Assembly: GCA_902761225.1 (NCBI GenBank)
Contig: CACWJQ010000039.1
Coordinates: 1-33,956, forward strand
Source: an uncultured Lachnospiraceae bacterium
GTDB taxonomy: Bacteria > Bacillota > Clostridia > Lachnospirales > Lachnospiraceae
Direction of reading: 5' to 3'
Length of the DNA: 33,956 nt
The notes below the pieces were generated by a model. That model made no database searches. It saw only the letters and a program-made list of their open reading frames with translations, and had not been told where the DNA came from. Made by a program: the position numbers and the translations under genes. The first letter of the stretch is position 1. Each line of letters opens with the position of its first letter. Of this stretch, positions 360 through 18,496 are shown piece after piece.

Positions 360-1598
360 TTAGCTGCTCTGATCAGGCTTTTTTATCTTCCCGAAAAAAG
401 CTCGTCTGCCTGCAGATATAAGAACTGACTTAAGTGACACGTTTCTTATCTTTTTATTATTGATCATAAACCTTGCAAAGGTAAGGCACCATAACACGGG
501 CCAGAGAGGTACCATCCTGCAGGCTTCGGGATAATTCAGCTTCATCTGATGATGGAATTCCCTGGCATAATCCACTATTCCGCTGCCTCTTAAGGCAACC
601 ATTCTGTCCTTCGACACCTTGCCGAATTCTCCTGATCTTAAGAAATCCTCCCAGTATGCATCCGTTTCGCTTCTGGTATACCTTCTGTCTCCGGCTGTAA
701 GAAGCTTTACGGACTTTTTGCACAGACCCAAATGTCTGTAGCACACAAGGGTGATCATATCGGAAAAGCCCTTGATGCCGCTTTCCTTTACAAGCTTAAG
801 GTATTTCCTGACTGTATGTTCGGGTATCTCCCTGTTCCAGAATGTTACCCAGTCACACAAAAGCCTTATTCCGAATCCGGATCTCAGATAATGCTGAAGC
901 ATATGAAGAAGCAGTTCGTATGCATGGAATGCATCTCCCAGGATATTAAGATCGACGCCAAGAACATTCCTGCTTACAACAAGGTCTTCATCCCCTGCAT
1001 TATTTTCTGACATAAGTCTGCGCTGCTGTTTTAAAAGGATCCTGTTGATCCTGTCATCATCGAAAGGCTCAACAAGAAGTGTGTGAAGTTCCACATCAAT
1101 GGTATCTTCAAAGGACATCACAACATGATGGAGGGCAAGCTGTGTCTCCTTCACTTTAAGGCCGTGCTCCTCAAGAACGCTTATAGCCCCGGTAAGCTTT
1201 TCCGCATCAGGGATAAGTATATCCACATCCCCGCTTTTTCTCATCAGAGGTGAGGGATAAAAAAAGGCTGTGCCCATACCTTTTAAAAGAAGCGAAGGAA
1301 TTCCCTTTTTTCTAAGTACATCAAGAATATCCCGTGACAGAAAAAGCAGCCTGAAATCCGAAGCAGCTGTCCTTATGGCATCATTGCGAAAACCGGCAAC
1401 GATCTTTTCGGGAATATGCTCCATACAGGATGCCGTGTCATATAAAAGCGCAGACACCTTCTGTGCACCGGCAATACCCGCAAGATCCATCCATTCTTTA
1501 TCGGACAGATAACCCTGTACATCGGTTTCTTTATTTATCTTTGCCCCGCTCAGAGAACATTTCAGCATTTCCCTGAGCATAATTTCCGTTTTATTCAT
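360..1598 (-). CDS. PF14907-type nucleotidyltransferase family protein
   Basis: 412 residues. The signature of the uncharacterised nucleotidyltransferase family NTP_transf_5 is plain: LLLKGMGTAFFYPSPLMRKS (about 103-122) followed at once by GDVDILIP, with the Asp pair D124/D126 placed as metal ligands in the pol-beta-like fold. The remaining ~280 residues are alpha-helical and without recognisable motifs. The ATG overlaps the TGA of the upstream flippase gene (ATGA), so the two are translationally coupled. Members of this family occur in polysaccharide clusters and also beside PqqD-like proteins in some modified-peptide clusters. Here a PqqD-like gene opens the same operon 18 kb upstream. The substrate (sugar, lipid or peptide carrier) cannot be told from sequence. 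This is the last gene of the operon. Confidence 0.8.
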   Translation of the reverse strand: MNKTEIMLREMLKCSLSGAKINKETDVQGYLSDKEWMDLAGIAGAQKVSALLYDTASCMEHIPEKIVAGFRNDAIRTAASDFRLLFLSRDILDVLRKKGIPSLLLKGMGTAFFYPSPLMRKSGDVDILIPDAEKLTGAISVLEEHGLKVKETQLALHHVVMSFEDTIDVELHTLLVEPFDDDRINRILLKQQRRLMSENNAGDEDLVVSRNVLGVDLNILGDAFHAYELLLHMLQHYLRSGFGIRLLCDWVTFWNREIPEHTVRKYLKLVKESGIKGFSDMITLVCYRHLGLCKKSVKLLTAGDRRYTRSETDAYWEDFLRSGEFGKVSKDRMVALRGSGIVDYAREFHHQMKLNYPEACRMVPLWPVLWCLTFARFMINNKKIRNVSLKSVLISAGRRAFFGKIKKPDQSS

Positions 1599-3139
1599 TT
1601 TGTAAGCCTGTTTTCAAGCACCTCGGAAGCCTTGCATCTCAGATACACAAAATCCGGATTTCTGCGGTACAGTGCCATATAAACCAGATTGGTAACACCG
1701 AAAGTGATAAGTATCCTTATAATGAGGCCGCCCCAGCTTCCCATCTCCGATATCAGCCTGTTTATAAGTGAATGCTCTATGACAAGAAGCGCCATGGTAA
1801 TAAATGTGTAATAAGCATATTTAAGGAAATACGGAATACAGCTTCTGCCCAGCCTGTGCCTGTAGAACATAAATGGTTCCACCCAGAATGAAGTAAGCAG
1901 CAGACTGATGAGGGTTCCGAGAAACACTCCCACCGTACCGTATCTGAATCCGAGCACCAGCGATACCACCAGATTGATCACAGCTTCAGCAACAGCCTTC
2001 CACTTATCATATTTGAAAAGCCCCATGGAATTCCTGAATATCAAAACAGGCTGTCTCATTCCCGAAAAATAAAACACCAGACACAGAACTATCGTGACCT
2101 TCATATCAAATCTGTACTGAGCTCCGAAGCTGAGTGAAACAAATACATCAAGCACTTCAAAAAGCATTATTGTGATCAGACCATATATCCATTGTCCCAG
2201 GAAGAATACAGAATCGAAAACTCTCACTATCCTGTCCTTGGATACATTGACATTCATGTCACCGATGCTCGCAGTCATTCCTTCAAACACCTGCTCGATT
2301 ACCTGTCTTACAGATCCTATGATCAGGTAATAGTTCGAATAACATCCGAGAGCAAGAGTCCCCACAAGCGAAGATAAAAGCAAGTTGTCGGTGTTGTTAA
2401 CGATAACGCTTCCGGCTTTATGGACCATCATAGCCTTAACGTCTTCATCAAGGGAAAGCTTTTCCTTATCATCTAGTTTTCTGACATCCCTGTCGTTAAG
2501 AAAGGGATACATCTTCCCTGCTTTTACGTGGACGCTGATATTGGATGCAACTGTACAGAGTATCCACACGCTCAGATACAGTATGAAATTCCCTGTAAGG
2601 AGCAGGATGACTATCTGCAGTATATTCTGCAGTATCCAGAAGGATGTCCTGATGATAGTTGTGATATGGCTCTGCTGGTGAGCATCAATGATTATCTTTC
2701 GGTATATCCCGATATATGAAAGGGCCGAATTAGCCACATACAAAAAATATATCAGTGGTAGACCTGGTATGGCGGACTTATCCTTTATCAGGATACCAAG
2801 CAGCGGAGTCACGGCAAGTCCGCCTGCAAGCATGATACCGGCCACGATGTAGTAAAACCGCCTGAACATTAGCATCAGAGTCTTCTGTTTTTCAATATCT
2901 CCGGATGCTATAGGCTTATAGAGTGCAAATGATACAGCAGTGTGAGCTCCAAGCTCAGATACAGCCATTATGTTCAGGATATCGCAAAACAGACCGTTTA
3001 TTCCGACATAGACAGAACTGAGGGTATGTGTAAACACGACTCTTGCTATGAACCCAATGAGTATGGCAGATACTCTGGATATCACCGCAACAGTCGAATT
3101 TCTTGCAGAATTCTCTGTTCTTCCGTTTATTTGAACCAA
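1595..3139 (-). CDS. Wzx-type polysaccharide flippase (MOP superfamily)
   Basis: 514 residues, almost wholly hydrophobic with about 12-14 membrane segments. The N-terminus (RNSTVAVISRVSAILIGFIA, then VFTHTLSSVYVGINGLF) is typical of Firmicutes O-antigen/teichoic-acid type exporters of the MATE-like MOP exporter superfamily. Such proteins flip undecaprenyl-linked oligosaccharides across the membrane. The start is a TTG at 3137-3139 with GCGGGT about 10 nt upstream; no better in-frame ATG precedes the first membrane helix. It lies 40 bp after the Stealth gene and overlaps the nucleotidyltransferase by 4 bp. Its presence is notable because PelG, also a MOP-family protein, is encoded by the same operon. 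This suggests a second, lipid-linked glycan or decoration besides the Pel polymer. Confidence 0.85.
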   Translation of the reverse strand: MVQINGRTENSARNSTVAVISRVSAILIGFIARVVFTHTLSSVYVGINGLFCDILNIMAVSELGAHTAVSFALYKPIASGDIEKQKTLMLMFRRFYYIVAGIMLAGGLAVTPLLGILIKDKSAIPGLPLIYFLYVANSALSYIGIYRKIIIDAHQQSHITTIIRTSFWILQNILQIVILLLTGNFILYLSVWILCTVASNISVHVKAGKMYPFLNDRDVRKLDDKEKLSLDEDVKAMMVHKAGSVIVNNTDNLLLSSLVGTLALGCYSNYYLIIGSVRQVIEQVFEGMTASIGDMNVNVSKDRIVRVFDSVFFLGQWIYGLITIMLFEVLDVFVSLSFGAQYRFDMKVTIVLCLVFYFSGMRQPVLIFRNSMGLFKYDKWKAVAEAVINLVVSLVLGFRYGTVGVFLGTLISLLLTSFWVEPFMFYRHRLGRSCIPYFLKYAYYTFITMALLVIEHSLINRLISEMGSWGGLIIRILITFGVTNLVYMALYRRNPDFVYLRCKASEVLENRLTK

Positions 3140-3179
3140 TCTATATACCCGCAGTTTCTAAATCACACGGACAGATGTC

Positions 3180-4199
3180 TCATTTTTCAAATGAGCATTT
3201 ATCACCGAATCTCTTATCAAAAGCCTTCACAAGCTTTTCTGTCACTTCCGTTTCATCACGCACAAGCCCCGTATCATTCAGGCACAGCACCTTTATATCA
3301 GGTAAAAATACTCTCCTGCCTCCGGATGAAATAATATCAGCTGCCTTCTTCAGATCATCGCACAGTTCATAATACCTGAAACTTGCGGTGACATTGGAAG
3401 GAACAAATTTCCCCGACAGCTTACCCCATTCACGGAACAGATACTGATTAACATCCGTATCATTCCTGAACTTATTATTATCAAGACTGCTGAGATATTT
3501 CCCTTCTCTGTTCCACACTTCGTTAAATACGCTCTTAAGCATGGGCGATGGACCATGAACGGTATATAATCCCGTGAATCTGGGAAAACCCAGCTCAAGA
3601 AGATTATAGAAAAAATACAAAGGCGGATAACCCAAATGGAAATATGCGCCCGGCTGTTTCCTGACATTATTCCGCTTGTCAAAATGCTTCGACAACACGA
3701 TGGAATCATTCATCAGATGATGCGACATGACCGGATTTGAGGGATTGGCCACCACAGGCTGAAATGCCAGCATATCTCTGGGAAGTCCGTTTTTAAAGAA
3801 ATAATCCTCTCCGCATTTTCCGAGCAGATACATGTCGTCATTAAAATATATAAACTGTTCGGAAAGACCCGGGATCAGATGCAGATATCTTTCTATAAGT
3901 GCCGAATTAAAACATGGTCTCGCACTCTCCGGCATAAAGTCTTCATGTCTTACTATATTGAGTCTTTCATTGGAGGTATCAAGCCATTCAGGAACATGCC
4001 CCCATGTGACAAAGTGGATCATACGTACCCAGGGTGCATTCTTTTCCATGCATCTGAACCAGTATTTTAGGAGCCCCCACTCATGATATCTTTCATCAGC
4101 ATCGTCTACGGGCTGTTCAGTGCGGTATTTTCTTTTTTCAGACAGCCACTCAGGGTCCGAACCGTCAACCCAGGTGATAACGATATCTGTATTCATCAT
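3180..4199 (-). CDS. Stealth family sugar-phosphate transferase
   Basis: 339 residues carrying the conserved regions of Stealth proteins (hexose-1-phosphate or similar phosphotransferases of capsules). CR1 is DIVITWVDGSDPEW (5-18). CR2 spans about 36-128 and includes RYHEWGLLKYWFRCMEKNAP and the acidic motif FNDDMYL (119-125). CR3 spans about 214-262 (HGPSPMLKSVFNEVW through NQYLFREWGK). A short CR4-like LCLNDT follows near 305. There is no signal peptide, as expected for a cytoplasmic enzyme. Two ATGs lie in tandem; AGAGGACA precedes them, and the second (start 4196) has the better spacing. Stealth enzymes normally join sugars through phosphodiester bonds, so this predicts a phosphate-containing glycan or a phospho-substituent made by this operon. 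The acceptor is unknown. Confidence 0.9.
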   Translation of the reverse strand: MMNTDIVITWVDGSDPEWLSEKRKYRTEQPVDDADERYHEWGLLKYWFRCMEKNAPWVRMIHFVTWGHVPEWLDTSNERLNIVRHEDFMPESARPCFNSALIERYLHLIPGLSEQFIYFNDDMYLLGKCGEDYFFKNGLPRDMLAFQPVVANPSNPVMSHHLMNDSIVLSKHFDKRNNVRKQPGAYFHLGYPPLYFFYNLLELGFPRFTGLYTVHGPSPMLKSVFNEVWNREGKYLSSLDNNKFRNDTDVNQYLFREWGKLSGKFVPSNVTASFRYYELCDDLKKAADIISSGGRRVFLPDIKVLCLNDTGLVRDETEVTEKLVKAFDKRFGDKCSFEK

Positions 4200-4225
4200 T
4201 GTCCTCTGCAGATCCGATAAGCATT

Positions 4226-6664
4226 TTACTTAGTCTGATATATGATATCCTGTGTTGTAACCCTGCTGTCATCCACCTCAAATCCCAGCTGATACAGGCA
4301 TGAAGGATTCTGTCTGAAATAATAGCACACAAAATCTTCATCCTCATAATACACATGGAGTTCCGTAGGATACAGATTCTGGAAATCATTGACCCACTTT
4401 AAGAGTCTCGACTCAAGAACAGTTCTGGTGATCCACTCCGCATAAGCATCGGATACAATGGGGAATTTATAGAATACTCCCGTTGCTATCTCAGGCGAAG
4501 CTGTTGAAGCAATATGATAGGGATATACGCTTCTTATGGAATTATCGTAATACTCGGAATATTTCTCCTTAGCAAGCCAGCCGGGTCCCGAGAAAAAATT
4601 AAACTGCGCATATTTCAGAGGATGTTTTTCAAAGAACAGGAATACGTACTCCGTGGGAAGCGTGTAATCCTTCTCTACACATTCATTGATAAAGTAAACC
4701 AGCTCCTCATGGTAGCCGTACTCTATCACATGATATATCTCCTCAACAGGTGAAACTATGGTAAAATTCCCCTTCTCCATATCTGATATTATGGATTCAG
4801 AAACGGAAACCGCCTGATTATACCTGGTAAACTCGGTATACAGATACCCGTGCAGACTTCCGGTGGCGATAACAACTATATAAATCGCCAATGTAACGAT
4901 ACCGGCACAGATCTCATTGACCAGAACAGGCAGCTTCTTATCCATTGCAAAAAACAGGATATCAAAGGGAACCACCATCACAGCGCATATCAGTATCTGC
5001 GCGATCAGGCACAATCTGCTGGGTGCAAACAGATTGTGAAGACCTATATATGACGAGCTGTACAGTATCATAAAAACAATGGATGAAAGGGCAAGTATGG
5101 CGTATCCGTCAAAGAGATCCATCCCTATATTATCGAAATTGTATTTATGTACATATATGATATTGGCTGCTTTAAGGATTACATACAAAGCCAGCACCAC
5201 TAAGGTAATGATACATATCATCTTGGCTCTTTCATGTCCGTAAATGGCAATATATCCGTGACGATAGACTCCTACGACTGTCTTTCTTATTCCCGATATA
5301 ACGGAAGCGTTATTCTCAGCCTTCCCCGGTTCATTCCCCTGTCCGGCCGCCCTGACCACAGGTAATCTGTTATCTTTCAGATCAAGCTTTCCATCTGTTA
5401 TACCCTGCTCTGCATTGACATTAGGATCACCCTGATATGTTCCGTCTTCTCCTCTTATGACTTCAATTCCCCATCCGAGGGAACCCTGTATACCGGTTCC
5501 CGTCACATATGCTATGAGCATCGGAGCTCCGGATAATACCAGTCCCACCATCACAGATGCGATGATCGGTATAAATCTTGCCGGTTTAAATACTCTGAGA
5601 AAGTAAAAAGGAACGATACACAGACAAAGGAAAAATGCAAAGCCCGATACATAGAAATGCGTGCATACCGATACTGCCAATGCGCCCGCAAACAGTATCA
5701 GTTCATCGTTGTAAAGAAGCTTTTTCAGCTTCTCTGTATTTCCGCCTCTTTTACCGATAAGATTTCTGATCCTGCTCTTTTCACTGCCGGATCTGAGATA
5801 TCTGATAAAGCCTATGGCACAGATAAATGCACTGAAGAGACAAAACTCCTGCGGTATTGTCCATTGCATTCTTGCCATGGAGTAGATCTCATCAACGCTG
5901 AGCGCATCGATAGTAAGAAAAATGGCAAGCGCAAATATGGGAGTGTATCCGGATCTGAACAGCTCCCTGAAGAAGAGATATGCGCACAGAAGGATCACCG
6001 GGATATTCACGCACTGAGCAAACAGCATACAGCTGAAAAGTCTTACACCAAAAAGGATATGCATTGCATAGAGGAAGCAGTGCATGCCCTCGGGATAAAT
6101 GCCCAGGGAAAAGATCTGCCCGTTTATCAGTCCATACAGCATGGAACTGTGGGTATACATATCACCGGTCCCGTATGAACGGTTCAGAAAGGAACCGTAT
6201 GAAAAATAGATCATTCCGAAAAGTATCACAACCGAAAGAAGGATGTATTCTATCTTATGTCCCTTAACCTTTTCTCTGAACGCCTTCTTATTACTGTTCC
6301 ATGCATCTATGGAGTTCCTGAAAAGATTCAGGAACATCTGCTTGACTCCGTAGCTTCCGGCTAGAATCCTGCCGGCTTCGTCCAGCCTTTCCTTTTTATC
6401 CGGTATCCTGATATACAGACTTATAAGTATGCTTCCGAAGAATAATACTCTGAAAAGCCAGGGTTTCAAAATACCAAACTGTCCAAGGAGCAATACAACC
6501 GTGTTAAGTATCACGATACTGATAACCGGACAGAACATGAATCTGTATGATAAGTATTTACCCTTAAGAAACCTGCGAAAAAGTATCGAAGGCCATAAGA
6601 ACATCAGAATAAAATATACGATCCCTACCTTGAAATATTCCAGAAACCAATAAAACAGCTCCAT
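4226..6664 (-). CDS. Large polytopic membrane protein, candidate GT-C-type glycosyltransferase (DUF6541-like)
   Basis: 812 residues. The first ~610 contain about a dozen hydrophobic segments; the last ~200 form a soluble, Tyr/Phe-rich domain, most likely outside the cell. Between early helices there is a loop with GTGDMYTHSSMLYGLINGQI followed by LGIYPEGMH. An Asp/His loop and a YP-G-H motif after the first helices resemble DUF6541-type and other GT-C enzymes that use polyprenyl-phosphate sugars. I do not recognise the protein with certainty. The start codon overlaps the preceding stop (TAATG), and the Stealth gene follows after 26 bp, so it belongs to the same transcript. A plausible role is extracytoplasmic addition of a sugar supplied by the GT2 enzyme encoded upstream; this is inference. 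Confidence 0.55.
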   Translation of the reverse strand: MELFYWFLEYFKVGIVYFILMFLWPSILFRRFLKGKYLSYRFMFCPVISIVILNTVVLLLGQFGILKPWLFRVLFFGSILISLYIRIPDKKERLDEAGRILAGSYGVKQMFLNLFRNSIDAWNSNKKAFREKVKGHKIEYILLSVVILFGMIYFSYGSFLNRSYGTGDMYTHSSMLYGLINGQIFSLGIYPEGMHCFLYAMHILFGVRLFSCMLFAQCVNIPVILLCAYLFFRELFRSGYTPIFALAIFLTIDALSVDEIYSMARMQWTIPQEFCLFSAFICAIGFIRYLRSGSEKSRIRNLIGKRGGNTEKLKKLLYNDELILFAGALAVSVCTHFYVSGFAFFLCLCIVPFYFLRVFKPARFIPIIASVMVGLVLSGAPMLIAYVTGTGIQGSLGWGIEVIRGEDGTYQGDPNVNAEQGITDGKLDLKDNRLPVVRAAGQGNEPGKAENNASVISGIRKTVVGVYRHGYIAIYGHERAKMICIITLVVLALYVILKAANIIYVHKYNFDNIGMDLFDGYAILALSSIVFMILYSSSYIGLHNLFAPSRLCLIAQILICAVMVVPFDILFFAMDKKLPVLVNEICAGIVTLAIYIVVIATGSLHGYLYTEFTRYNQAVSVSESIISDMEKGNFTIVSPVEEIYHVIEYGYHEELVYFINECVEKDYTLPTEYVFLFFEKHPLKYAQFNFFSGPGWLAKEKYSEYYDNSIRSVYPYHIASTASPEIATGVFYKFPIVSDAYAEWITRTVLESRLLKWVNDFQNLYPTELHVYYEDEDFVCYYFRQNPSCLYQLGFEVDDSRVTTQDIIYQTK

Positions 6665-7914
6665 TATCTTAATTCTCCCAAAAGAACGCTTCCGTCATCT
6701 TCGCAGATGTTGGCATAGCGTATTGTTTTTCCATCAAACATACGAACGGTCTTAAGGTATACATATACCGTTCCCGAAAACCCGTCTTTATAACCACCCG
6801 GTATACATACCTGAATGCTTTCCGTTTCACCGGGCATGATGCTTCTTCCCATATCAGCCGGTATGTCTATCGTCTTTATGCCGGGACCCTGACTTTTTAA
6901 AATGATACAGCTCTTTGTCTCTCTGTATAAAGGAGCAAATCCGTTATTTGAAATATTGATCTGCAGGATATTTTTTGACCTTGAGAATTTCACGCTTTTT
7001 ACAATAAGCCTGTATCCCAGTCTACTGCTTACGGAATCAAAGAGCCCTTCTCTTTCCTTAAGTTTTTCAAGGAGAAGCGGATCATAGTCCATATTCAGAT
7101 AAGTGATCCTTTTTTTCTGTAAAAATGAGATCACCTCATTATCCTTAAGCCGGTCTATATATCCTCCACCGTATACAGCCTCGCCGCCGTTTGGCGAATC
7201 CAGGGATATACCACTCTCATATTCCGGATCTGCGTCCTGATCCTTATATGTCCCCATGTCTGACTCGGATGCAAATATCGCATCATCGAAGAGTCCGAGT
7301 CTGCGGTCATCATTATCGAGCTGTCTGTGTATATCCGGTCTTCTTACAGCAAAAAAGCATTCGGGATGTCCTTCAGAAAGTTCATCCGAACCCAGCCCCT
7401 TTATCCTGTCATATATACCTGTAAAGGAAGCGGCATCCGTATATCTCGAAGTATGCATCTCCCCCCAGTTACCCACAAGGAGACCCTGATAAATAAATAC
7501 CCTGCTTCCGGCACGCGCAAGAACGTTCCTTACGAGCCCTGCATCCCTGAGCACCTGCTCGTAGTAATACGGCTCATTTTCAAGAGCATGGCCACAGGTA
7601 TCATAAGTGACTCTCAGGATGATATCCTTGCCCTGTCCGTAGAAATGATCGATGATCCCGAGCATCCTGTCAGCAAGTACTGCCTGAGACGATCCATCTT
7701 CAGATACTGATCCTATGCAAAAAAGAAGGAGTATCATTGAAGGTGCTATACCGGTTATTTTGGGAAGCTCATCCCTGCCCGGCCCTTCCTTCCTGAGATC
7801 ATAGGTATACATCCTGTACCAGCCTCTGTCAGGATTGCACAGATCTTCTGATGACTCTCTAAGTTCAGATGCTTTGAACGAAGGTCCTGTTTTAAAAAAA
7901 TCCGTTAATCCCAT
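6664..7914 (-). CDS. DUF4874/DUF4832-like putative TIM-barrel protein, without signal peptide
   Basis: 416 residues. The N-terminal LCNPDRGWYRMYTYDLR (25-41) matches the 'NP-RG-YR' opening of DUF4874. LLVGNWGEMHTSRYTD (145-160) matches the W-G-E-M-H signature found between DUF4874 and DUF4832. Families with this layout are predicted glycoside-hydrolase-like (alpha/beta)8 barrels with a C-terminal beta-sandwich, consistent with the beta-rich last 120 residues. Known relatives are usually secreted. Here the protein begins MGLTDFFKTG with no hydrophobic leader, so it is predicted to be cytoplasmic unless exported another way. Its first 10 bp overlap the end of the GT2 gene, and its stop overlaps the next start. 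The activity is unproven. Confidence 0.7.
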   Translation of the reverse strand: MGLTDFFKTGPSFKASELRESSEDLCNPDRGWYRMYTYDLRKEGPGRDELPKITGIAPSMILLLFCIGSVSEDGSSQAVLADRMLGIIDHFYGQGKDIILRVTYDTCGHALENEPYYYEQVLRDAGLVRNVLARAGSRVFIYQGLLVGNWGEMHTSRYTDAASFTGIYDRIKGLGSDELSEGHPECFFAVRRPDIHRQLDNDDRRLGLFDDAIFASESDMGTYKDQDADPEYESGISLDSPNGGEAVYGGGYIDRLKDNEVISFLQKKRITYLNMDYDPLLLEKLKEREGLFDSVSSRLGYRLIVKSVKFSRSKNILQINISNNGFAPLYRETKSCIILKSQGPGIKTIDIPADMGRSIMPGETESIQVCIPGGYKDGFSGTVYVYLKTVRMFDGKTIRYANICEDDGSVLLGELR

Positions 7915-8738: not shown

Positions 8739-9989
8739 TTATCCGGGAAGGGATACGAGTTTTTCAACAGCCTTTCCGGCGGCTTCTTCATCATCCAGAT
8801 ACCCGTAAGCTGCTTTATTCCCGTATTTTCTCAAAAGGTCATCATCATAGATCAGTCCAAGCACTGTATCCGCCACAGACTCGGGGTCAAATGCACAGAG
8901 CAGCCCGTCAATGCCTTCGGTTATCTGTTCTCTGTTACCGCTGCAGTCAGATGCTATAACCGCCTTTCCAAGGATCCTGGCTTCCTGTATCGCAATGCTC
9001 TTTCCCTCATACCCTGTGACATGCACATACAGATCGGCTCCTGCGATATAGGGATACGGATTATCCACAGCCCCGCACAAGATAAAATCATTCTCAAGAC
9101 CGTATCTTCTGATGCATTCCGTAAGGAACTTCCTTCTGTCTCCGTCACCGATCAGATACCATCTTACAGGCTTTAGATCCGGTCTGCCCTTCAGTTTATC
9201 CACTATAATCTTCATGGCTTCGATGGATACTTCAAAGGATTTCTGATCGGTGAGACGTCCGACCGTTACGATCCTCCTGCCATCAAAACCGTCGTTAAAA
9301 CCATGTCCCTTCTCAGACATTGCGATAATGCGGTCCCTGTCGATAAGATTTGGGAACACTTCCGTGATACTGCTCTTTTCCGGATACACCTTTAAGAAGG
9401 AATCCCTCACTTCAGCAGAGACAGTAAATATCCTGTCCATATGGTCATAACAATCAAGATCAAGCTTTCTGTTATAACCGGCCCGCACATAATCCACATG
9501 CACGAATGCAGCCTTAATGTCCGCATTTACATGATCTGCCGCATAATAAGTCGATCCGCCTTCAAGAAATGCCACGGCAAGATCGTAATGTTCATTAAAA
9601 ATTTCAGAGGTATCTGACAGCACTCTCCACATCAGCTTATCTGCCCTGACTTTACCATCTGCGATCATGGACAAGGCATTACGAAGAAGGTATGAAAAGT
9701 GCCTGATCATTCCGCCTTTTTGGATCAGCGCGGCGGTACAGGTTTTTCTTAAGATCTTCCTTCCATCATCTGTCAGTACGGATACATTACTGATATTCCG
9801 GTTAAGCACCCTGACGCCTGCGGGAAGCTCGTCCCACATATCCCCCTGAGAGGTTATAACATACAGACTTATATCATATAACCCTTCATATTCTCCGCTC
9901 AGGAGCTTTTTAAGAAGGGTTATCATAGCAGTCTCGGCGCCGGCACGGCTGAGGGTATTTATAACAAATAAGATTTTTTTCTTATCCAC
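8739..9989 (-). CDS. GT4 family glycosyltransferase (GT-B fold)
   Basis: 416 residues. The N-terminus KILFVINTLSRAGAETAMIT is the classic GT4 opening. The C-terminal half has VGRLTDQKSFEVSIEAMKII and the nucleotide-sugar site YEGKSIAIQEARILGKAVIA, in which two Glu residues are spaced E-x7-E. It begins with GTG, supported by AAGGAA at good spacing upstream, and follows the DUF2304 gene by 16 bp. There are no membrane segments, so it is a cytoplasmic enzyme. The sugar donor cannot be read from sequence. It is distinct from PelF encoded in the same operon and probably acts on a side chain or on the lipid-linked unit handled by the flippase. Confidence 0.88.
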   Translation of the reverse strand: MDKKKILFVINTLSRAGAETAMITLLKKLLSGEYEGLYDISLYVITSQGDMWDELPAGVRVLNRNISNVSVLTDDGRKILRKTCTAALIQKGGMIRHFSYLLRNALSMIADGKVRADKLMWRVLSDTSEIFNEHYDLAVAFLEGGSTYYAADHVNADIKAAFVHVDYVRAGYNRKLDLDCYDHMDRIFTVSAEVRDSFLKVYPEKSSITEVFPNLIDRDRIIAMSEKGHGFNDGFDGRRIVTVGRLTDQKSFEVSIEAMKIIVDKLKGRPDLKPVRWYLIGDGDRRKFLTECIRRYGLENDFILCGAVDNPYPYIAGADLYVHVTGYEGKSIAIQEARILGKAVIASDCSGNREQITEGIDGLLCAFDPESVADTVLGLIYDDDLLRKYGNKAAYGYLDDEEAAGKAVEKLVSLPG

Positions 9990-10005: not shown

Positions 10006-10422
10006 TCAGCCGTTCTTATTGTCATCTTCAACACTTTCGGATATATTCTCTTCGCTTTTCCTGATCTTCTCTAATTCTTCCCTTATCTCATCCTTTTCCT
10101 GCGTAAGAAGAGTCAGTCTTATCGCAAGTTCCGTATTTTTTCTCATCAGTTCGGATATGGCACGGGAGAAAAACAGGGCTATGTACACAAGGAGAAAGAA
10201 AATGATAAGTATGATCACAAAGCTGACGGGACTAATGAGGGCGGACAGTCTTGAGGGCCTGATGATACACCCGCCAATGATGGTGAGTACCGATACCAGT
10301 CCCCACATAAGGCAGAAAGATTCCGTCATACGGCGCTTTGCAAGAGAAAACACCGCATCGCCCAGCAGAAATACTCCAACGATTATAATGACCGCTTTCA
10401 GAATAATGCCCATGGAATTCAT
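10006..10422 (-). CDS. DUF2304 family small membrane protein
   Basis: 138 residues. Three hydrophobic segments (about 7-21, 37-53 and 62-85) are followed by a charged, coiled-coil-like tail rich in Glu and Lys (about 90-138). Size, topology and the motif RRMTESFCLMWGLVSV match DUF2304 proteins, which are commonly encoded beside GT2 polyprenyl-phosphate glycosyltransferases and are thought to act in lipid-linked sugar supply. The gene starts 8 bp after pelG and precedes the GT4 gene by 16 bp. No enzymatic motif is present. Function is by association only. Confidence 0.75.
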   Translation of the reverse strand: MNSMGIILKAVIIIVGVFLLGDAVFSLAKRRMTESFCLMWGLVSVLTIIGGCIIRPSRLSALISPVSFVIILIIFFLLVYIALFFSRAISELMRKNTELAIRLTLLTQEKDEIREELEKIRKSEENISESVEDDNKNG

Positions 10423-11956: not shown

Positions 11957-13166
11957 CACCGTAGAGCAGGGCTGAACAGTTACCTACATCGGTTGCGATC
12001 ACAGGCTTTCCCGCCGCAAAGCTCTCAAGGATCGTAAGAGGCTGTCCTTCAGAGATACTTGTAAGGATAGTCATATCCATTCTTCCAAGGTAATCCTTTA
12101 CATTGATCCTTCCGGTAAATAGAACATCCTTTACGCCAAGGTCCCTGACAAGCTCATAGCATTCACGTGCATATACCTCATCTTCATCCACAGGTCCCAT
12201 GATAAAGAGTCTGAGATTCGGAACCCTCTCCTTGGCATATGCAAATGCCTGTATCATTGTCTTAACATCTTTGATGGGAGTTACACGGAGCACAGCACCT
12301 ATCTGGATCTTATTGAGTTCATCCTCATGCTTTCCCGGAAGATTCTCGAAATTCTCCACAACGATACCGTTTGGCGTAACTTCCGTCTTATATTCAGGGC
12401 ATCCCAGATCTATCTGCAGCTCCCTTGCATGTCCGTACAGCGAAGTCACTATGTTGGCACTGTCATAGGCAAGCCTGGACATCTTCCTGAACTGATCTAT
12501 CCAGATACTCTTATATATTCCGCCTACCCATGAAGCCTTCAGTATCTCTTCTTCTCTTTCTCTCGTATATATACCGTGCTCGGATACAATGAGAGGACTT
12601 CTGTAGCGGTGCTTAGCCATTCCTCCGATGATACCTGCATAACCGGTAGCAACGCAGTGATAGATATCTGCTCTCGGAATCTCGGTTCCAAGTATCAAAA
12701 ACAGCGGCAGATATATCGACCTCATGGTCCAGAGGAAATCCGAGAATACTATCTGTGAGTATTCCTTATCATAGAATTCTTCAACGATATGGAAGAAATC
12801 TTCACCCATCAGAAGTGCATCGATCGAGATATCATTATCCGCAAAAAGATCAAAGATGACTTTCCATTCCGCATTCTGTCCCATGACAATGCTGCGGAGG
12901 GCCCTGTACTGTGCAGTACTGAGCTTTACCTTCTTCTTTTTCTTCTTGCCCGCATTCCAGTCATAGTCATCCAGATATGCCTCATAGACTGCCGTTACAT
13001 TCTTAGGCAGCTCGTAAGCGAATTTCCCGCTTCCGTCACGGTTCGAAATGATCGCAAGTATCTCGAACTCGTCATTTGGAAAAGCGTTTATCATGCTGTT
13101 TATCCAGCCCGAAACGCCTCCGACCACATATGGATAACATCCTTCAGCAACAATACAAATCTTCAT
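11946..13166 (-). CDS. pelF: PelF glycosyltransferase, truncated by a frame-shifting deletion at the C-terminus
   Basis: 406 residues, GT4-like. The N-terminus KICIVAEGCYPYVVGGVSGW is diagnostic of PelF, the cytoplasmic UDP-HexNAc-using Pel glycosyltransferase. The active-site segment EGQPLTILESFAAGKP holds the E-x7-E pair (E373, E381). The frame ends seven codons after ATDVGNCSALL, at ...YGEEG-stop. In PelF proteins this point is normally followed by about 60-80 more residues (a GxGxV-type strand and the terminal helices that fold back on the N-domain). The expected very end of PelF is present just downstream but in another frame (see 11891-11956). The result is an internal deletion whose length is not a multiple of three. 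The first ~400 residues look intact. A weak ribosome site (AGGGTG) precedes the ATG. The product is probably impaired. Confidence 0.88.
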   Translation of the reverse strand: MKICIVAEGCYPYVVGGVSGWINSMINAFPNDEFEILAIISNRDGSGKFAYELPKNVTAVYEAYLDDYDWNAGKKKKKKVKLSTAQYRALRSIVMGQNAEWKVIFDLFADNDISIDALLMGEDFFHIVEEFYDKEYSQIVFSDFLWTMRSIYLPLFLILGTEIPRADIYHCVATGYAGIIGGMAKHRYRSPLIVSEHGIYTREREEEILKASWVGGIYKSIWIDQFRKMSRLAYDSANIVTSLYGHARELQIDLGCPEYKTEVTPNGIVVENFENLPGKHEDELNKIQIGAVLRVTPIKDVKTMIQAFAYAKERVPNLRLFIMGPVDEDEVYARECYELVRDLGVKDVLFTGRINVKDYLGRMDMTILTSISEGQPLTILESFAAGKPVIATDVGNCSALLYGEEG

Positions 13167-13253
13167 CTTTCACCCTATCATCAGGATTTCCGGTTTACAG
13201 AGCTTTACAAGATCACATCACAAGTCATATTTTACGATACCTGCCACAAAAAC

Positions 13254-15119
13254 TCAGAACGGATTCTCATATGTATATACTTCATCCGAATCACGAAGTG
13301 TTATCTCCGCTCTGTCACCTGTCATGTGTATCAGATATGCATCCTTCTCTATCAGCTTCCAGTCACCGCCCGTCATTCCTTCAACCTGCTGCTCATGAGT
13401 CCTTAGCAGGAACCAGCATTCATCGTAGGCTTTATCGGTGAACAATGTGATCTTCACATTTTCATCTTCCCTCTGATAATATGTCTCGTAATCAAGGGAA
13501 AGCATCTTTCTGATCCTGTAATCACTCTCCGAAAGAGTTGTCTGCTCAAAGAGGGAGAATCTGTGCCAGTAGGTAGAGATATTACTGCTGATGAGATCGA
13601 AATAATTCTCCCATTCATCATCCTCATTATCAGGCCTGAAAGCATTGTTCATGCTTATCATAAGAGACGAATACCCGACAGATGTATTGAGGCTTCTTGC
13701 AAGCAGATCCCTGCTGTAGGAATATCTGGTGGCATCCTGTGTAATGCTCTGGAATGTAATATCATCATTAAGATAATAAAACAGTTCATCAGTGTCTCCG
13801 GGACCTGCGACCGAAACTATTCCGTCAAAGAGCCCGCTTTCTGGTGACTGACGAAGTGCGTCAACCGCCTCTGAAAGACTGTCCACATATGCGGTCCTGA
13901 AGTTATATTCCACCGAAGGATCGTTATAGAATTCCGAATCGAATACCATCTTCGAGATGAGATCATCATCAGTTCCGGTATACCTGAGAGAACGACCGGC
14001 TTCTCCCGATAAGCTTCCGATCTCTTCAAGATAGAAATCCAGATGTTCCGTATCAAGAGCGGCATCATCATCCATATCGTACCTTGTTCTTATCAGGAAG
14101 GTGGGAACTATCTGATTTCTCTCCGAAACAGATACTATTCCCGGGAAGAATATATCTCTCTGGACACCATTGGAGTCCCTGTAATAGAGCTCCTGCATAA
14201 CATCACTCTGCTCATCGGACATACCCGGTATATCGATAAACAGGGAAGTCTGGGCATTGACCACAGGATACAATGCAAAATCCGCACTCTCATAAAGGAT
14301 CAGATCCAACATCCCGAGTCCCGCAAGCGACTTCAGATAATCTCCGTTAACGGCAAATACTTTGGTCTTGCCTCCGCTGAACCTCCACATTATCCTGGGA
14401 AAACTCTCGCGGTCAGCTTTGCTCTCATCAAGCAATCCGACCATATATGACTTGGAGCCTTCCGCAGTCACATACCACGGCATTCTCAGATCAAGATCCT
14501 GGAATTCTTTCTCCTGATCGTTCTCAGCCTTATATACAGCTTCTCCGCCGACAAATGCTCCCTCGAAAATCCTTATGCCCTGTACGGTAACTTCCTCAGC
14601 CATTATCTTTGTTATACCCAGAAGATTCTTTAGCTGTTCATTATTGCGGATCACCTGCACCGGAGGAAGTGTAAGGAATACAACGGTGGTACCCTTTCTG
14701 AGATAACTGTTAAGAGTGGACATATAACAGCCTGTACTGAGGGATTCTCCGTCTATAAGGATCATATAATCATGGCTGTGATCCATTGTGCTGTACAAAG
14801 GCAATATGTCATAAAATGTCAGAGGTGCCTTTATAAGCTTGCACCACTGCTTAACTGTTACAGCAGCTTCCGAATCGGGACTTCCGATAAAGATAATGTT
14901 GCGGGCTGCGGATACACCGATATTCTCTTCACCCGTCACATCAGGTGAAAAAACCACATCCTGACTCCATTCATCGGCATGGGCCGGCAGCACGATGTCC
15001 TCGTAGAAATCATTATTGTTCTGATTAACATGGCTGCGCATTACCTGTGAGAACTGACACAGGAAGAACACAACGAACATCATCAGGATTATTGCAAAGA
15101 AATTTCGTCTTGATACCAT
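13254..15119 (-). CDS. DUF2194-like, PelA-related membrane-anchored protein of the Pel locus
   Basis: 621 residues: one N-terminal membrane anchor (about 8-27, FFAIILMMFVVFFLCQ), so the bulk is extracytoplasmic. A Rossmann/flavodoxin-like segment follows (NIIFIGSPDSEAAVTVKQWC to about 165), then a long domain to the C-terminus (LFIDIPGMSDEQSD onward) that I assign to DUF2194. Position between pelE and pelF is where Gram-positive loci carry pelA-type genes (hydrolase/deacetylase). I find no N-terminal GH barrel and no H-x3-H metal motif of CE4 deacetylases in the C-terminal region, so catalytic deacetylation is doubtful. The ATG has a good site (GGTGAAGGTGTA) and lies 7 bp after pelE. A role in handling the nascent polymer outside the membrane is inference. 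Confidence 0.6.
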   Translation of the reverse strand: MVSRRNFFAIILMMFVVFFLCQFSQVMRSHVNQNNNDFYEDIVLPAHADEWSQDVVFSPDVTGEENIGVSAARNIIFIGSPDSEAAVTVKQWCKLIKAPLTFYDILPLYSTMDHSHDYMILIDGESLSTGCYMSTLNSYLRKGTTVVFLTLPPVQVIRNNEQLKNLLGITKIMAEEVTVQGIRIFEGAFVGGEAVYKAENDQEKEFQDLDLRMPWYVTAEGSKSYMVGLLDESKADRESFPRIMWRFSGGKTKVFAVNGDYLKSLAGLGMLDLILYESADFALYPVVNAQTSLFIDIPGMSDEQSDVMQELYYRDSNGVQRDIFFPGIVSVSERNQIVPTFLIRTRYDMDDDAALDTEHLDFYLEEIGSLSGEAGRSLRYTGTDDDLISKMVFDSEFYNDPSVEYNFRTAYVDSLSEAVDALRQSPESGLFDGIVSVAGPGDTDELFYYLNDDITFQSITQDATRYSYSRDLLARSLNTSVGYSSLMISMNNAFRPDNEDDEWENYFDLISSNISTYWHRFSLFEQTTLSESDYRIRKMLSLDYETYYQREDENVKITLFTDKAYDECWFLLRTHEQQVEGMTGGDWKLIEKDAYLIHMTGDRAEITLRDSDEVYTYENPF

Positions 15120-15126
15120 TACACCT

Positions 15127-16026
15127 TCACCTGAAAACCCTTATAAATTCAAGGGTTTCTCTGTCAACTACAACGGGTGACTTTTTAAGTTCTTCCACCA
15201 CTTCGAAAAACTTCTCTTTCTCATGGATGTTAAAATACAGCTTCATGCGGCAGGTATAAGCAGGAAGAGATTCAGGGAACATCTCTGCGCAGCGGTTGCA
15301 CCACATTTCGCACTTTTGATACTCTTCGATCTCCAGCAGCCTGAGACATACAGCTTCAAAATAGGATATCTGCATGGACTGTCTTGATTCGGAATAGATC
15401 ACGGAACATATCTCCTCCATAATACGGACATAGTTCCTCTGCTCTATATCGGTGAAAACCCTTTGCTGAAGTATCTCGTTCATATAGCTTATGGCAGCTT
15501 CAGCAGCAATGATCTTCTTTTCGGGCTCCTCGCGCATTGTCCTGCGATATTTTTCAACAGTGACCCTGAACTCATTCAGGGCATCCTGGAGAACCGATGC
15601 GGCATAGTGTGCGGTTTCGGTATCTTCACTGTTCAGTGCCAAGGATATGGAATTAAGAGTCTTCTGAATGTCACCGCGTACAACATTCATCATAAGTCCT
15701 CGAAGATCCTTTTCATTGGTTATGGCTATGGCTTCTTCGATGGATACGAGATTCCTCTCTCTGTCCTCCTCGGCATGGAATGTCTGCTTCACCTTGTCCT
15801 TACTGAATATGACATCTTCGAGGTCCACAGGTTCCGAGAAAAAGAATTTGAAAAAAATGTAGGAAAGCAGATAATAAACCGGACCGAGCACAGGGCAGCA
15901 CAGCATCACGATAAAAATGTGATAAGCCGATTTCTGCTGTTTCCTGCGGTTCAGTACGAGGAAAATGACAGAGACTATGATATTGATCACAAAAATGACT
16001 ATCAGGGCAATCGCACGGCCTGTCAT
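15127..16026 (-). CDS. pelE: PelE-like membrane/TPR protein
   Basis: 299 residues. Two N-terminal membrane segments (about 5-24 and 36-62) are followed by a cytoplasmic all-helical region, about 90-299, with TPR-like helix pairs (YFEAVCLRLLEIEEYQKCEM, then AYTCRMKLYFNIHEKEKFFE). This is the layout of PelE, which bridges PelD to the PelF/PelG synthase in the inner membrane. The start ATG overlaps the stop of the SDR-PelD gene (ATGA), as expected for subunits made in equal amounts, and the DUF2194-like gene follows 7 bp later. Sequence conservation in PelE is low, so the call rests on topology, helical repeats and position. Confidence 0.75.
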   Translation of the reverse strand: MTGRAIALIVIFVINIIVSVIFLVLNRRKQQKSAYHIFIVMLCCPVLGPVYYLLSYIFFKFFFSEPVDLEDVIFSKDKVKQTFHAEEDRERNLVSIEEAIAITNEKDLRGLMMNVVRGDIQKTLNSISLALNSEDTETAHYAASVLQDALNEFRVTVEKYRRTMREEPEKKIIAAEAAISYMNEILQQRVFTDIEQRNYVRIMEEICSVIYSESRQSMQISYFEAVCLRLLEIEEYQKCEMWCNRCAEMFPESLPAYTCRMKLYFNIHEKEKFFEVVEELKKSPVVVDRETLEFIRVFR

Positions 16027-18203
16027 TTATAATTCCCCTCCAATAATAAACACTCAAATCCCAGATCCTTAAGTCTTGCGATAACGAATTCCGCATCCTT
16101 CTCATCCGTATTGGCAAGAAGTACACCGATATTGCCATCCTCGAGCATACCCACATAATCGTGGTCTCTGAGCTTGGTATAAAGCAGCTTGCTGTTCTCC
16201 ACATTATCGGTGCCTGCAGTATCAAGCTTCAGTACAACGCACTCGGTAAGTCCGTCATCATCGGCTCTCATGTATGCTTCACTGAGACTCTTGAACGCAC
16301 CGGGCTCCATAAGATGGCTCTCACCCACATACATCTGATTCACAAGGGCTGCAAGATATTTATTGGCGCGCACAACCGCACTTCTTATGAGAGCTCCGAT
16401 TATAACAAGCTGGTTAGCCTGTCCGAGAGTCATGCTCTCCCAGGGAAGAGTCCAGATCATTATGATCGTCTGAATCTCTCCATCATCACTGTAGATGGCA
16501 CTTGCCATTACAGGGAGTTCATCCTTAAGCTGTCTGTTTATGAATACTTTCTTCTGCGACAAAGCTTCATACATTTCTCCGAGTTCCTTGAACTTAACGG
16601 AGTTGCCCAGATGCTTTGCTTTTTCTGAAGTGTATGAGAAAAGTCTTGCGTATGCCGAATTTCCAACGGTATATACCGCTACGTCCTCGCTCTTCATAAG
16701 ATCAGAAACAATAGCTGCTGCCTGGAAGAGAACATCTTCCTGATTGTACAGATCAAGCCTTGATGTGATGGAGTAGATCTTTCCAACACTGTCATTCTGA
16801 TTGATTATCTGAGTTTCAAGGGCATCCTTAACCCGTACGTTACTGTCATTGATATCCTTAATATCCCTGAGCTGAAGTGAGAGATATTCATGATCCTCTT
16901 CATGCTCTCTCCTCATCTTGGTTATGGTATCTCTCATATAACCGACGACCAGACCTACAATGAAGAGCTGTGCGATCCACAGGTATGTTCCGCTGTCAAC
17001 AAATACAAGGGCATCGGAATTGCCGGCGATCTGACTGATGATATAACCTGCGACAGCAAGCGTTGCCGAAACCGCTGCCTGCTGCTGTCCGTAGAACACT
17101 GCAAAAAGAAGGACATACAGGAAATAGAAATCCATCTTTTCAAAATAATTGGTATTGCCCGCCCAGGTATTGAGAAGGGTAAAGATGACAAAAGCGATGA
17201 TATTCTCGATAAAAGGAATGAGCAGTTTGAAGGAGGAACCGACTTTTTCGAAGATCCTTTCCCTGAGGGATTTCTTCATTGCCTCCCCGAAAACAAAGGC
17301 TCTTCTGTATCGTTTCATCTGATCTACGACTTTCCTGATTATCACGGAAAAATCACATAATGAAACAAATCCGAATTCCCATGTAAATGCTTCGTTAGAG
17401 AGAACCTTTCTGGTCTTCTTCTCACTGTTTACAACGGTTTTTACACTGAAGCCAAGACAGTTGCTGATCTTTTCTGCTATCTCGCCCTCCGATACCGGAT
17501 TGGATGATGAAATGTTATAGACAGGCTTCGTATGCTCTTCAGCTGTTGAAACCTTATAAATGCACTCGATAGCGTCGGTCAGATAAGTAAGAGCAAAGAC
17601 ATTGTTCTTATCAACAGGGATAACATTGTCATACAATCCGTGAGTGATCATACGGCAGCAGATATCCGTTGCATCTTCCACATGCATAGGTATTACAAAT
17701 ACATTATCAAGCCTGAGGATAACAATATCCTTACCGGTGCTCCTTAAGTAACTTGCACACATCTCCTCTGCCTGGGAAAGAACCATGCCCTTAAATCCGG
17801 AGGGATTAAGAGGTACGTCTTCGGTAATGTCATTATCATAATCACCTGAATATACCTCACTTGAGGAAAGGTACACGAATCTGCCGGTTCCCGCCATAAC
17901 ATATGCCATAAGGATGTTCATCATCCTTGCGGAATATTTAACGGCTTCATCCTCTTCCTTTTCCCAATTGAAATTGGTGTCATATGCACCCATGAAGATG
18001 GTCAGATCAGGTCTGATACTCTCAAATATCTCATTAAGACAGCTGCTGTCATATGAGAAATTGTATTTCTCAAAAACCTTCTGATATGGTCTGTCATCAT
18101 ATCTGGAACCGGTAAGAAGGTACACTCTGTGTCCTTCCTTCTTAAGCTTGACGATAAGATTGTTGATAAATGTACCGGCCCCGCCGATCAGCAGAACGTT
18201 CAT
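16023..18203 (-). CDS. pelD: Extended-SDR domain fused to a PelD-type c-di-GMP receptor
   Basis: 726 residues. Residues 1-290 are an extended short-chain dehydrogenase/epimerase domain: LIGGAGTFINNL (5-16), VYLSSSEVYSG (110-120). The YxxxK catalytic pair seems replaced by M140-xxx-Q144. Residues ~326-424 hold about four membrane helices, then a helical linker (425-480), a GAF-like domain (~485-610) and a GGDEF-like domain (~630-726). In the last, the inhibitory c-di-GMP site is intact (R679-D-H-D682), followed at canonical spacing by EDGNI where GGDEF should be. It therefore cannot be a cyclase but should bind c-di-GMP, exactly as PelD does to switch on Pel synthesis. GGAGAG precedes the ATG; it overlaps pelE by 4 bp. 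Epimerase genes are often found beside pel genes; here the domain is fused. Confidence 0.9.
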   Translation of the reverse strand: MNVLLIGGAGTFINNLIVKLKKEGHRVYLLTGSRYDDRPYQKVFEKYNFSYDSSCLNEIFESIRPDLTIFMGAYDTNFNWEKEEDEAVKYSARMMNILMAYVMAGTGRFVYLSSSEVYSGDYDNDITEDVPLNPSGFKGMVLSQAEEMCASYLRSTGKDIVILRLDNVFVIPMHVEDATDICCRMITHGLYDNVIPVDKNNVFALTYLTDAIECIYKVSTAEEHTKPVYNISSSNPVSEGEIAEKISNCLGFSVKTVVNSEKKTRKVLSNEAFTWEFGFVSLCDFSVIIRKVVDQMKRYRRAFVFGEAMKKSLRERIFEKVGSSFKLLIPFIENIIAFVIFTLLNTWAGNTNYFEKMDFYFLYVLLFAVFYGQQQAAVSATLAVAGYIISQIAGNSDALVFVDSGTYLWIAQLFIVGLVVGYMRDTITKMRREHEEDHEYLSLQLRDIKDINDSNVRVKDALETQIINQNDSVGKIYSITSRLDLYNQEDVLFQAAAIVSDLMKSEDVAVYTVGNSAYARLFSYTSEKAKHLGNSVKFKELGEMYEALSQKKVFINRQLKDELPVMASAIYSDDGEIQTIIMIWTLPWESMTLGQANQLVIIGALIRSAVVRANKYLAALVNQMYVGESHLMEPGAFKSLSEAYMRADDDGLTECVVLKLDTAGTDNVENSKLLYTKLRDHDYVGMLEDGNIGVLLANTDEKDAEFVIARLKDLGFECLLLEGNYK

Positions 18204-18214
18204 TGTGCTCTCCC

Positions 18215-18496
18215 TTAATAATCGTTTCTGTGCAGGTTATCAAAAAAAGCTTCAATATCTTTTTTTACAGTTTCAATATCGGTATCCGTTTCGGAGGATA
18301 TCTTCCCTGCGATCTCATCCGCAGTCATTCCGGATATCCACATCCTTGCTATCTCAGCCCCGAATTCATTCATCATAAGAGGCTTGTGATAATCAAAAGA
18401 CGGCTGCCCGGGATCGTAAAGCCAGAATACCCCTCCGGCCTCCGCAACAGCATACCTCATATTTATATCGACATTTTCTTCCTGTTTCTTTTGCAT
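18215..18496 (-). CDS. PqqD-like small protein, first gene of the polysaccharide operon
   Basis: 93 residues. The C-terminal two thirds match PqqD: MMNEFGAEIARMWISGMTAD (about 41-60) resembles the 'LNE-GA-IW-L--G-T--EI' core, followed by a helix ending VKKDIEAFFDNL, like the 'V--DV--FL--L' tail. PqqD proteins are peptide chaperones that bring a precursor peptide to a radical-SAM or other modifying enzyme. No radical-SAM gene or obvious precursor peptide is seen here, but a PF14907-type nucleotidyltransferase closes the same operon. No clear Shine-Dalgarno site precedes the ATG, which lies 30 bp after the pepP stop; expression may rely on read-through and coupling. Role in the Pel context unknown. 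Confidence 0.8.
   Translation of the reverse strand: MQKKQEENVDINMRYAVAEAGGVFWLYDPGQPSFDYHKPLMMNEFGAEIARMWISGMTADEIAGKISSETDTDIETVKKDIEAFFDNLHRNDY

Follow-up and report, generated by a model that had tools for sequence, protein, structure and literature searches.

A Pel-kind locus with an inactive deacetylase site beside RiPP-like genes in Lachnospiraceae points to a possible, so far unrecognised surface glycan linked to protein

What does a pel locus make when it is embedded in a much larger set of glycan genes? The question is raised by contig CACWJQ010000039.1 of an uncultured Lachnospiraceae bacterium (assembly GCA_902761225.1), 33,956 bp long and called here, at its full length, the window. 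Its positions 360-18496 carry on the minus strand 14 genes that combine the Pel machinery with PqqD-like, Stealth, flippase and nucleotidyltransferase genes. Whitfield et al. (2020) describe pel genes of Roseburia within a larger cluster with GT1, GT2, phosphotransferase and nucleotidyltransferase genes, and regard that cluster as capsule- or teichoic-acid-like, perhaps making a polymer unrelated to Pel (PMC7112168). The composite thus has a precedent; the original prediction had described known Gram-positive Pel loci as compact. We find that the protein in the PelA slot has no deacetylase active site across the clade and that most carriers also possess genes resembling those for ribosomally synthesised and post-translationally modified peptides (RiPPs). 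We consider it reasonably likely that a Pel-derived, probably cyclic di-GMP (c-di-GMP)-gated glycan machine was rebuilt in Lachnospiraceae and coupled to a RiPP system resembling the one named LPP. The 14 open reading frames (ORFs), with the gene fragment that follows them, are:

18215..18496 (-): PqqD-like protein, candidate RiPP recognition element (RRE); PF05402, 32.4 bits against a cut-off of 23.4
16023..18203 (-): PelD with N-terminal SDR (pseudo-epimerase), two transmembrane peaks and a degenerate GGDEF; SDR PF01370
15127..16026 (-): PelE-like membrane protein; position and profile across pel loci, no Pfam family over cut-off
13254..15119 (-): PelA-slot protein, DUF2194/PelADA homologue without deacetylase active site; PF09960
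11946..13166 (-): PelF glycosyltransferase (GT4), C-terminal end missing; NF038011, 343 bits
10431..11885 (-): PelG exporter; PF16933, 480 bits, 12 transmembrane peaks
10006..10422 (-): DUF2304 small membrane protein; PF10066, marginal at 25.7 bits against a cut-off of 25.5
8739..9989 (-): GT4 glycosyltransferase; PF13692/PF00534
7905..8696 (-): GT2 glycosyltransferase; PF00535
6664..7914 (-): DUF4874-DUF4832 protein; PF16116, PF16173
4226..6664 (-): membrane glycosyltransferase of 812 aa with predicted GT-C fold; AlphaFold and Foldseek, no Pfam match
3180..4199 (-): putative Stealth family sugar-phosphate transferase; PF11380 at 131.8 bits, PF17101, with CR3 and CR4 under cut-off
1595..3139 (-): Wzx-like flippase; no family over cut-off, PF01943 in aligned relatives, 9 transmembrane peaks
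360..1598 (-): PF14907 nucleotidyltransferase (NTP5); 106.8 bits against 31.2
1..216 (-): first part of a lipoprotein gene that the contig end interrupts; its remainder, then a precursor-like ORF and an exporter gene, are on contig C91 (L217)

Relatives of the locus were collected through PelG (PF16933), found in 16 of the 97 genomes searched, the genus contributing 11 of its 31 genomes, own genome included. A profile search of genome contigs gave 316 confirmed stretches; the best 80, the nearest part of the list, were kept, and within these 80 of 316 PelG is 60-81% identical to that of the window. With genus and family regions added and 7 duplicates removed, 85 composite-clade loci (window included) were set against 26 other pel loci. 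The class and phylum searches (20/391 and 12/398 genomes matched) supplied 22 of these 26 controls; six matched genomes were left out, of which one gave fragments and the other five had marginal matches of 45 residues. The split was made first by accessory genes, and L091, L104, L109 and L117, which are truncated or variant, were reassigned to the composite group by PelG similarity. Composite PelGs lie on one side of a branch with support 100/100 in a tree of 63 of the 110 usable PelGs (25 controls, 38 composite). Uncultured Roseburia loci L108 and L111 belong to this clade, which therefore probably includes the Roseburia arrangement of Whitfield et al.

The operon is not a chance collection, since the 85 composite-clade loci share a nearly identical set and order of genes. 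The constant company that the original prediction expected of the SDR-PelD fusion is thus real, rather than a pel core with neighbours varying at random. Of the 69 composite loci that extend 9 kb or more upstream, PelD, PelE and PelF are present in 69/69, DUF2194 in 67/69 and PqqD, on the locus strand, in 64/69. Where 9.5 kb or more of downstream sequence is available (67 composite loci), DUF2304 was found in 63, GT4 in 66, GT2 in 65, DUF4832 in 67 and GT-C in 62. Constancy declines at the end of that series, with Stealth in 35, Wzx in 43 and NTP5 in 53 of the 67, the counts of these last genes being limited by the flanks. The GT-C gene takes one of two places, ahead of PelA or behind DUF4832. 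Control loci have PelD-E-A-F-G and seldom more. Many composite loci (L053, L057, L064, L083 and others) hold a second DUF4832 gene, often on the opposite strand. Two composite loci, L077 and L084, occur in one metagenome-assembled genome labelled Candidatus Gastranaerophilales (NALB_7961_9) and group with Lachnospiraceae PelGs; the likely reason is a bin that is mixed or mislabelled, or a transfer.

One peculiarity lies in the PelA slot. The homology of this protein to PelADA is secure at the level of sequence profiles. DUF2194 is the PelADA family, for an intact control protein from G003 matches PF09960 along its entire length and B. cereus PelADA 9ZAU with E 1.9e-57, and the window-type protein aligns to intact PelADA at 96.4% in hhalign over 437 columns. 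The catalytic residues D262, H350, H354 and H488 (numbered after PMC13254593) were compared in the 75 of 85 composite loci whose PelA-slot protein exceeds 400 aa. All four are found in 0/75 of them versus 18/22 other pel loci; 74 of the 75 keep none, and the last keeps a single, alignment-dependent H354. An alignment-free search for HGxxH gave the same contrast (0/75 versus 18/22), and a typed H[PA][DE][DE] motif was found anywhere in the protein in 4/75 composite members and 18/22 controls. In the PelG tree the controls lacking the full site (G041, L143, L144, L149) count among those closest to the composite clade, as if the site had been lost stepwise, although several of them are long branches. 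Two of these sister loci, G041 and L143 (G278), carry GT-C and GT2 genes between PelE and PelA, are without the DUF2304-GT4 block downstream and could be intermediates.

The remainder of the synthase complex is kept. PelF and PelG are both present, and the RxxD motif of the PelD c-di-GMP site is retained in 74/74 composite rows (controls 21/24, the remaining 3 gapped), in agreement with the c-di-GMP control first proposed for the locus. The genome of the window has 36 GGDEF matches, 35 of them over cut-off, so c-di-GMP is likely available. PelD was identified by its position, by RxxD and by a hidden Markov model (HMM) that also matches compact PelD-like proteins of other pel loci, and PelE was named by position and by an HMM connecting it to compact pel loci. 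Pfam names neither PelE nor the PelD part. The Pfam PelD family PF16963 had no match in the own genome or in 14 controls and is thus uninformative, and a PDB search with profile A6 found SDR-type enzymes only. The SDR part of PelD, judged from the alignment, has lost its catalytic residues, with Lys in 0/71 and Tyr in 10/71 composite rows. This bears out the view of Whitfield et al. that the SDR domain of clostridial PelD is likely inactive (PMC7112168). Two apparent PqqD-PelD fusions were discarded: in G042 PqqD is a separate overlapping ORF and the long start an over-extension, and for G049, whose ORF is likewise longer, no PqqD was found.

With synthase complex and c-di-GMP motif kept and the deacetylase site gone, the product of the clade probably differs from ordinary Pel, as far as chemistry can be deduced from genes. 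Catalytic PelADA mutants of B. cereus are reported to have no detectable Pel (PMC13254593). This makes doubtful the Pel-like polymer with side groups that had been proposed for the locus, and since no competent PelADA site is present, we do not class the composite locus among true pel operons. The B. cereus pelDEADAFG operon resembles it in the order PelD-PelE-PelA-PelF-PelG and in the c-di-GMP site; it differs in that PelADA is active and required and in being described as a five-gene core, without GT-C, Stealth, Wzx or RiPP genes (PMC7112168; PMC13254593). Could the polymer nevertheless be Pel, made by an ordinary operon with accessory genes and de-N-acetylated by another enzyme? The conservation of PelF, PelG, PelD and PelE would fit, as would a weak, sub-threshold GH114 match (E 0.06) of the lipoprotein encoded after NTP5. 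We hold this very unlikely given the 0/75 composite proteins with a full site, the dependence of B. cereus on PelADA activity for any detectable Pel and the constancy of the extra glycosyltransferases across loci. A Pel gene annotation does not, then, imply cationic Pel, since throughout a large clade the deacetylase is dead. The lipoprotein itself, roughly 550 aa long and encoded between NTP5 and the precursor gene (L217 1-1494 plus window 1-216), has homologues in five distinct loci, own included. As a PelA-type hydrolase it is at most a weak candidate (GH114 E 0.062 and 0.065, both sub-threshold; PDB searches gave nothing or an unrelated weak match).

The genes downstream of PelG are consistent with a second, lipid-linked sugar branch, as had been anticipated from DUF2304, GT2 and a GT-C-like protein. 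For the 812-aa protein a GT-C membrane fold is confirmed in the AlphaFold model (pLDDT 83.9, pTM 0.86): its 14 best Foldseek rows are all GT-C enzymes or complexes holding one (OST, PglB, DPY19, ALG9, ALG12, ArnT, PMT), with modest TM-scores of 0.16-0.48, and are followed by noise. We take the GT2 protein to be a candidate polyprenyl-phosphate sugar synthase, DUF2304 presumably being its candidate partner, and we assume for Stealth the sugar-phosphate transfer ascribed to that family. The Stealth assignment itself was upheld by PF11380 (131.8 bits) and PF17101; a typed CR1 string matched 3/39 and was given no weight. The flippase owes its name to aligned relatives. PF01943 was found in 4/14 members of the alignment, window included (best 2.1e-8), and MatE in 4/14; the window's own protein has neither PF01943 nor another family over cut-off.

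The predicted one-strand operon of 14 genes is present as such, all ORFs lying on the minus strand with intergenic gaps of -10 to 42 bp, except for 87 bp from DUF2194 to PelF and 60 bp from PelF to PelG. Family scans gave a match over cut-off for 11/14 ORFs (PqqD, SDR, DUF2194, PelF, PelG, DUF2304, GT4, GT2, DUF4874+DUF4832, Stealth CR1/CR2 and NTP_transf_5). Its ends differ from those first drawn. ThrC and PepP lie upstream of PqqD with gaps of -4 and 30 bp, and the transcript may therefore start ahead of PqqD. A promoter and terminator scan was uninformative (45 promoter-like sites versus 45.7 expected), and an Rfam search gave zero elements at threshold. At the other end, the window is one entire contig, so that the operon is cut and PF14907 is not its last gene. 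The lipoprotein ORF from 216 runs past the contig end into contig C91, which shares 66 identical bases with the window end; there the lipoprotein frame is completed and is followed by a precursor-like ORF of 162 aa and the first part of an ABC exporter gene. A further contig, C44, carries a partial ABC frame, a gene for a PqqD-HprK-like protein, a peptidase-like gene and PEPCK.

The relatives have the same components beyond NTP5: a leader-bearing ORF, an ABC exporter, a fusion of PqqD to a P-loop protein and a small signal-peptidase-like protein. The hint of a peptide step in the pairing of PqqD with PF14907 is thereby backed, the two being no isolated pair but apparently belonging with a larger RiPP-like set outside the window. 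The discrete PqqD is a candidate RRE by its sequence; PqqD-HprK-like proteins were counted apart from it, as an iterated PqqD HMM recruits both. Among the 31 genus genomes PF14907 is found in 9, namely the 8 with a composite locus and G018, which has a divergent copy on a short contig. A PF14907 gene was also found in 28/29 genomes (30 loci; 25 had shown no separate NTP5), often within a frame of 911-965 aa. In 14 loci Wzx and NTP5 are a single protein, as detected by single-sequence queries. The NTP5 pattern GDxD ... E is invariant in 13 aligned rows, and a regular expression matched 42/57.

In the PqqD-P-loop fusion the PqqD domain was recognised in 8/9 members and lasso PqqD in 4/9; the GxGK P-loop and NGDLN are invariant in 9 rows, and the own copy is on C44. 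NCBIfam HprK_rel_A matches 8/9 members (best E 9e-4) and HprK_rel_B 4/9 (best 1e-4), the scores of the first member being 11.8 and 12.5 bits where each cut-off is 200. The exporter has PF00664 and PF00005 over cut-off, with MsbA_rel as best NCBIfam match, under its cut-off. The peptidase-like protein matches TIGR02228 with E 3.7e-7 (30.1 bits against a cut-off of 51.85) and has a visible SMYP motif.

The precursors share a leader of the type MKNYEKPVVLxNEELAEGVYAASG (consensus YxxPxVL...EGxYAAS). The search pattern fixed P, G and the second Tyr of EGxY and permitted few residues elsewhere, so agreement there proves little; YxxPx(V/I)L has V or I in 40/40 (six residues permitted) and L in 35/40 (five permitted). 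Not imposed by the pattern are Tyr as first residue in 40/40 (Y, W and F permitted) and Glu ahead of Gly in 40/40 (D, Q and N permitted). A Ser, free in the pattern, stands at position 19 (36/40) or 20 (4/40) after the first Tyr, within AAS or xGS directly past the leader, whose cleavage point we infer. The main core type is an all-beta domain ranking with chitin- and cellulose-binding modules, and two precursors with a different core resemble CBM_2 (PF00553), one over and one just under the Pfam cut-off. G1019, G042 and L115 have two or three precursor-like ORFs close together, with differing cores behind one leader.

These proteins could be plain secreted carbohydrate-binding proteins with an unusual leader, modified by neither PqqD nor the P-loop protein. 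Their cores are folded and, at about 100-150 aa, large for a RiPP, and the identity of the kinase is weak. Set against this are the LPP-like start of the leader, LPP precursors that themselves span 35-200 aa (PMC13381572) and the undemanded Ser directly past the leader in all 40 sequences, so that we judge this explanation quite unlikely.

Among the closest known systems are the clusters for linear polyphosphorylated peptides (LPP) described by Popov et al., which have an RRE, an HprK-like kinase, an NTP transferase, an archaeal-type signal peptidase and an MsbA-like pump, and whose precursors start YxxPxVL (PMC13381572). Ser 3 of the LPP core AQSNWK is phosphorylated; the role of the peptide is given there as unknown, a part in biofilm being only a guess. 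The set studied here resembles LPP in its RRE-like PqqD, NTP transferase and MsbA-like pump, in a putative HprK-like and a putative signal-peptidase-like protein, in the leader start YxxPxVL and in a Ser close past the leader. Unlike LPP, the composite system has a PqqD domain of its own in the kinase-like protein, large cores resembling carbohydrate-binding modules (CBMs) and a tie to a pel locus, and the leader ends in EGxYAAS versus HQxIxFETxxS; the latter remainder is not matched, xExLAEGxYAAS standing in its place. Because this second half differs we call the system LPP-like, not LPP. Pseudomycoidin offers a second likeness, its PsmK and PsmN being a kinase and an NTP-transferase homologue that act on a peptide Ser; it differs in being a lasso peptide. 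A review reports that PsmN attaches hexoses to phospho-Ser (PMC9266682). The account of the Roseburia cluster in PMC7112168 is silent on loss of the deacetylase site, on PqqD, precursor, exporter and peptidase, and the kinase discussed there for other loci is CotH. A search of the open literature, with subscription papers and supplements outside it, found no fitting title for a Pel-RiPP link or for this leader among the matches listed. Both halves are of known kinds; their union together with a dead deacetylase is, within the scope of that search, undescribed.

Are the two halves connected? On the genomes compared, the RiPP-like set is inherited with the pel locus in most carriers. In the genus the PqqD-P-loop fusion (8/31) and the precursor (8/31) occur in exactly the 8 genomes with the composite locus (8/8 versus 0/23, Fisher p 1.3e-7, the related genomes not being independent), and the three genomes with another pel type have neither. 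A family sample of 240 genomes from 239 genera has composite-type PelG (cut E <=1e-140, set at a gap after the values were seen and taking in intermediates such as G041) in 23 genomes and other PelG in 17. At E <=1e-90 the fusion is found in 14 genomes, 13 among the 23 and 0 among the 17; the precursor is found in 15, 14 among the 23 and 0 among the 17. At 1e-10 some match to the fusion occurs in 59/240 genomes, with 16/23 composite-type and 1/17 other PelG, and four genomes without PelG have fusion matches between 1e-52 and 1e-61, full-length in two cases. In 11/13 genomes one contig holds both fusion and PelG, 7-18 kb apart; in the own genome and G055 the fusion is on another contig. The leader motif was found in 27/85 composite loci, a count limited by the flanks, versus 0/26 controls.

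Several observations weigh against a coupled system. In G960 fusion, exporter and precursor are all present although PelG is absent, and 10/23 composite-PelG genomes are without the fusion at E 1e-90 and 9/23 without the precursor. The module was not seen in the fetched stretches of G971, G1024, G1008, G949, G951, G918 and G1083, nor in the stretches of L188, L192 and L195. Most maps place the kinase-like gene on the opposite strand, and the label of kinase is weak, with no Pfam kinase match in the 9 fusion members. The models, having been built on composite loci, are biased towards close relatives, and several "invariant" leader positions were imposed by the search pattern. The window PelF has 406 aa versus 473-479 aa in genus relatives of the same type. 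It is the only shortened one (1/84) among composite-clade PelFs, ending about 70 residues early; its frame stops early and tail-like residues of the family are readable in another frame. The shortening may be an assembly error.

Some of these points would follow if a Pel-derived capsule- or teichoic-type locus and a separate RiPP cluster, possibly for a competition or signal peptide, were independent neighbours that travel together and have unrelated products. LPP and paeninodin clusters commonly occur within capsule loci to which they have no known connection (PMC13381572), the kinase-like gene runs in the opposite direction, the genus peptidase-like gene adjoins PEPCK, and either part can be met without the other (the RiPP part alone in G960; no fusion in those 10 composite-PelG genomes). 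We find such independence somewhat unlikely in view of the exact co-occurrence in the genus, of PqqD opening the pel operon in most loci with NTP5 last or joined to Wzx, and of the CBM-like core of the precursor. Because of inheritance, position and the Wzx-NTP5 fusion we privilege a coupling of glycan and RiPP parts; the best-supported view is one functional unit of re-purposed Pel synthase, lipid-linked sugar branch and RiPP-like CBM protein.

In such a unit c-di-GMP would turn on PelF and PelG, and the glycan would exit without de-N-acetylation and so not be cationic Pel, the dead PelA perhaps serving as a PelG-bound scaffold. The GT-C protein could add GT2-derived lipid-linked sugars outside, and Stealth could attach a sugar phosphate. 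PqqD would present the leader of the CBM-like precursor, and the PqqD-HprK-like protein may phosphorylate the Ser just past the leader; by analogy with PsmN, PF14907 would then place a sugar or nucleotide on that phosphorylated Ser. The MsbA-type pump would export the precursor and the SipW-like peptidase trim its leader, leaving a small CBM-like protein that binds, or becomes joined to, the glycan of its own locus. A bolder version is a protein-anchored exopolysaccharide, in which the phospho-Ser of the CBM-like peptide is the acceptor where PF14907, with Wzx, starts or attaches the non-de-N-acetylated glycan of the re-purposed Pel synthase under c-di-GMP control; we rate this version unlikely and put it forward tentatively.

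A coupled system would offer candidate answers to two questions: what the Roseburia-type pel cluster makes, whose authors could not say whether it is Pel, and what LPP-type RiPPs are for. If it is real, gut Lachnospiraceae would employ a second messenger to induce a matrix whose Pel-derived glycan and ribosomal carbohydrate-binding peptide are produced together.

Apart from this locus, the window carries at 24074-29281 (-) a complete-looking Rnf operon adjoining a GH25 gene. Its members are an RnfB-like ferredoxin, two Rnf-Nqr subunits, an FMN-binding RnfG-like protein, RnfD/E and RnfC.

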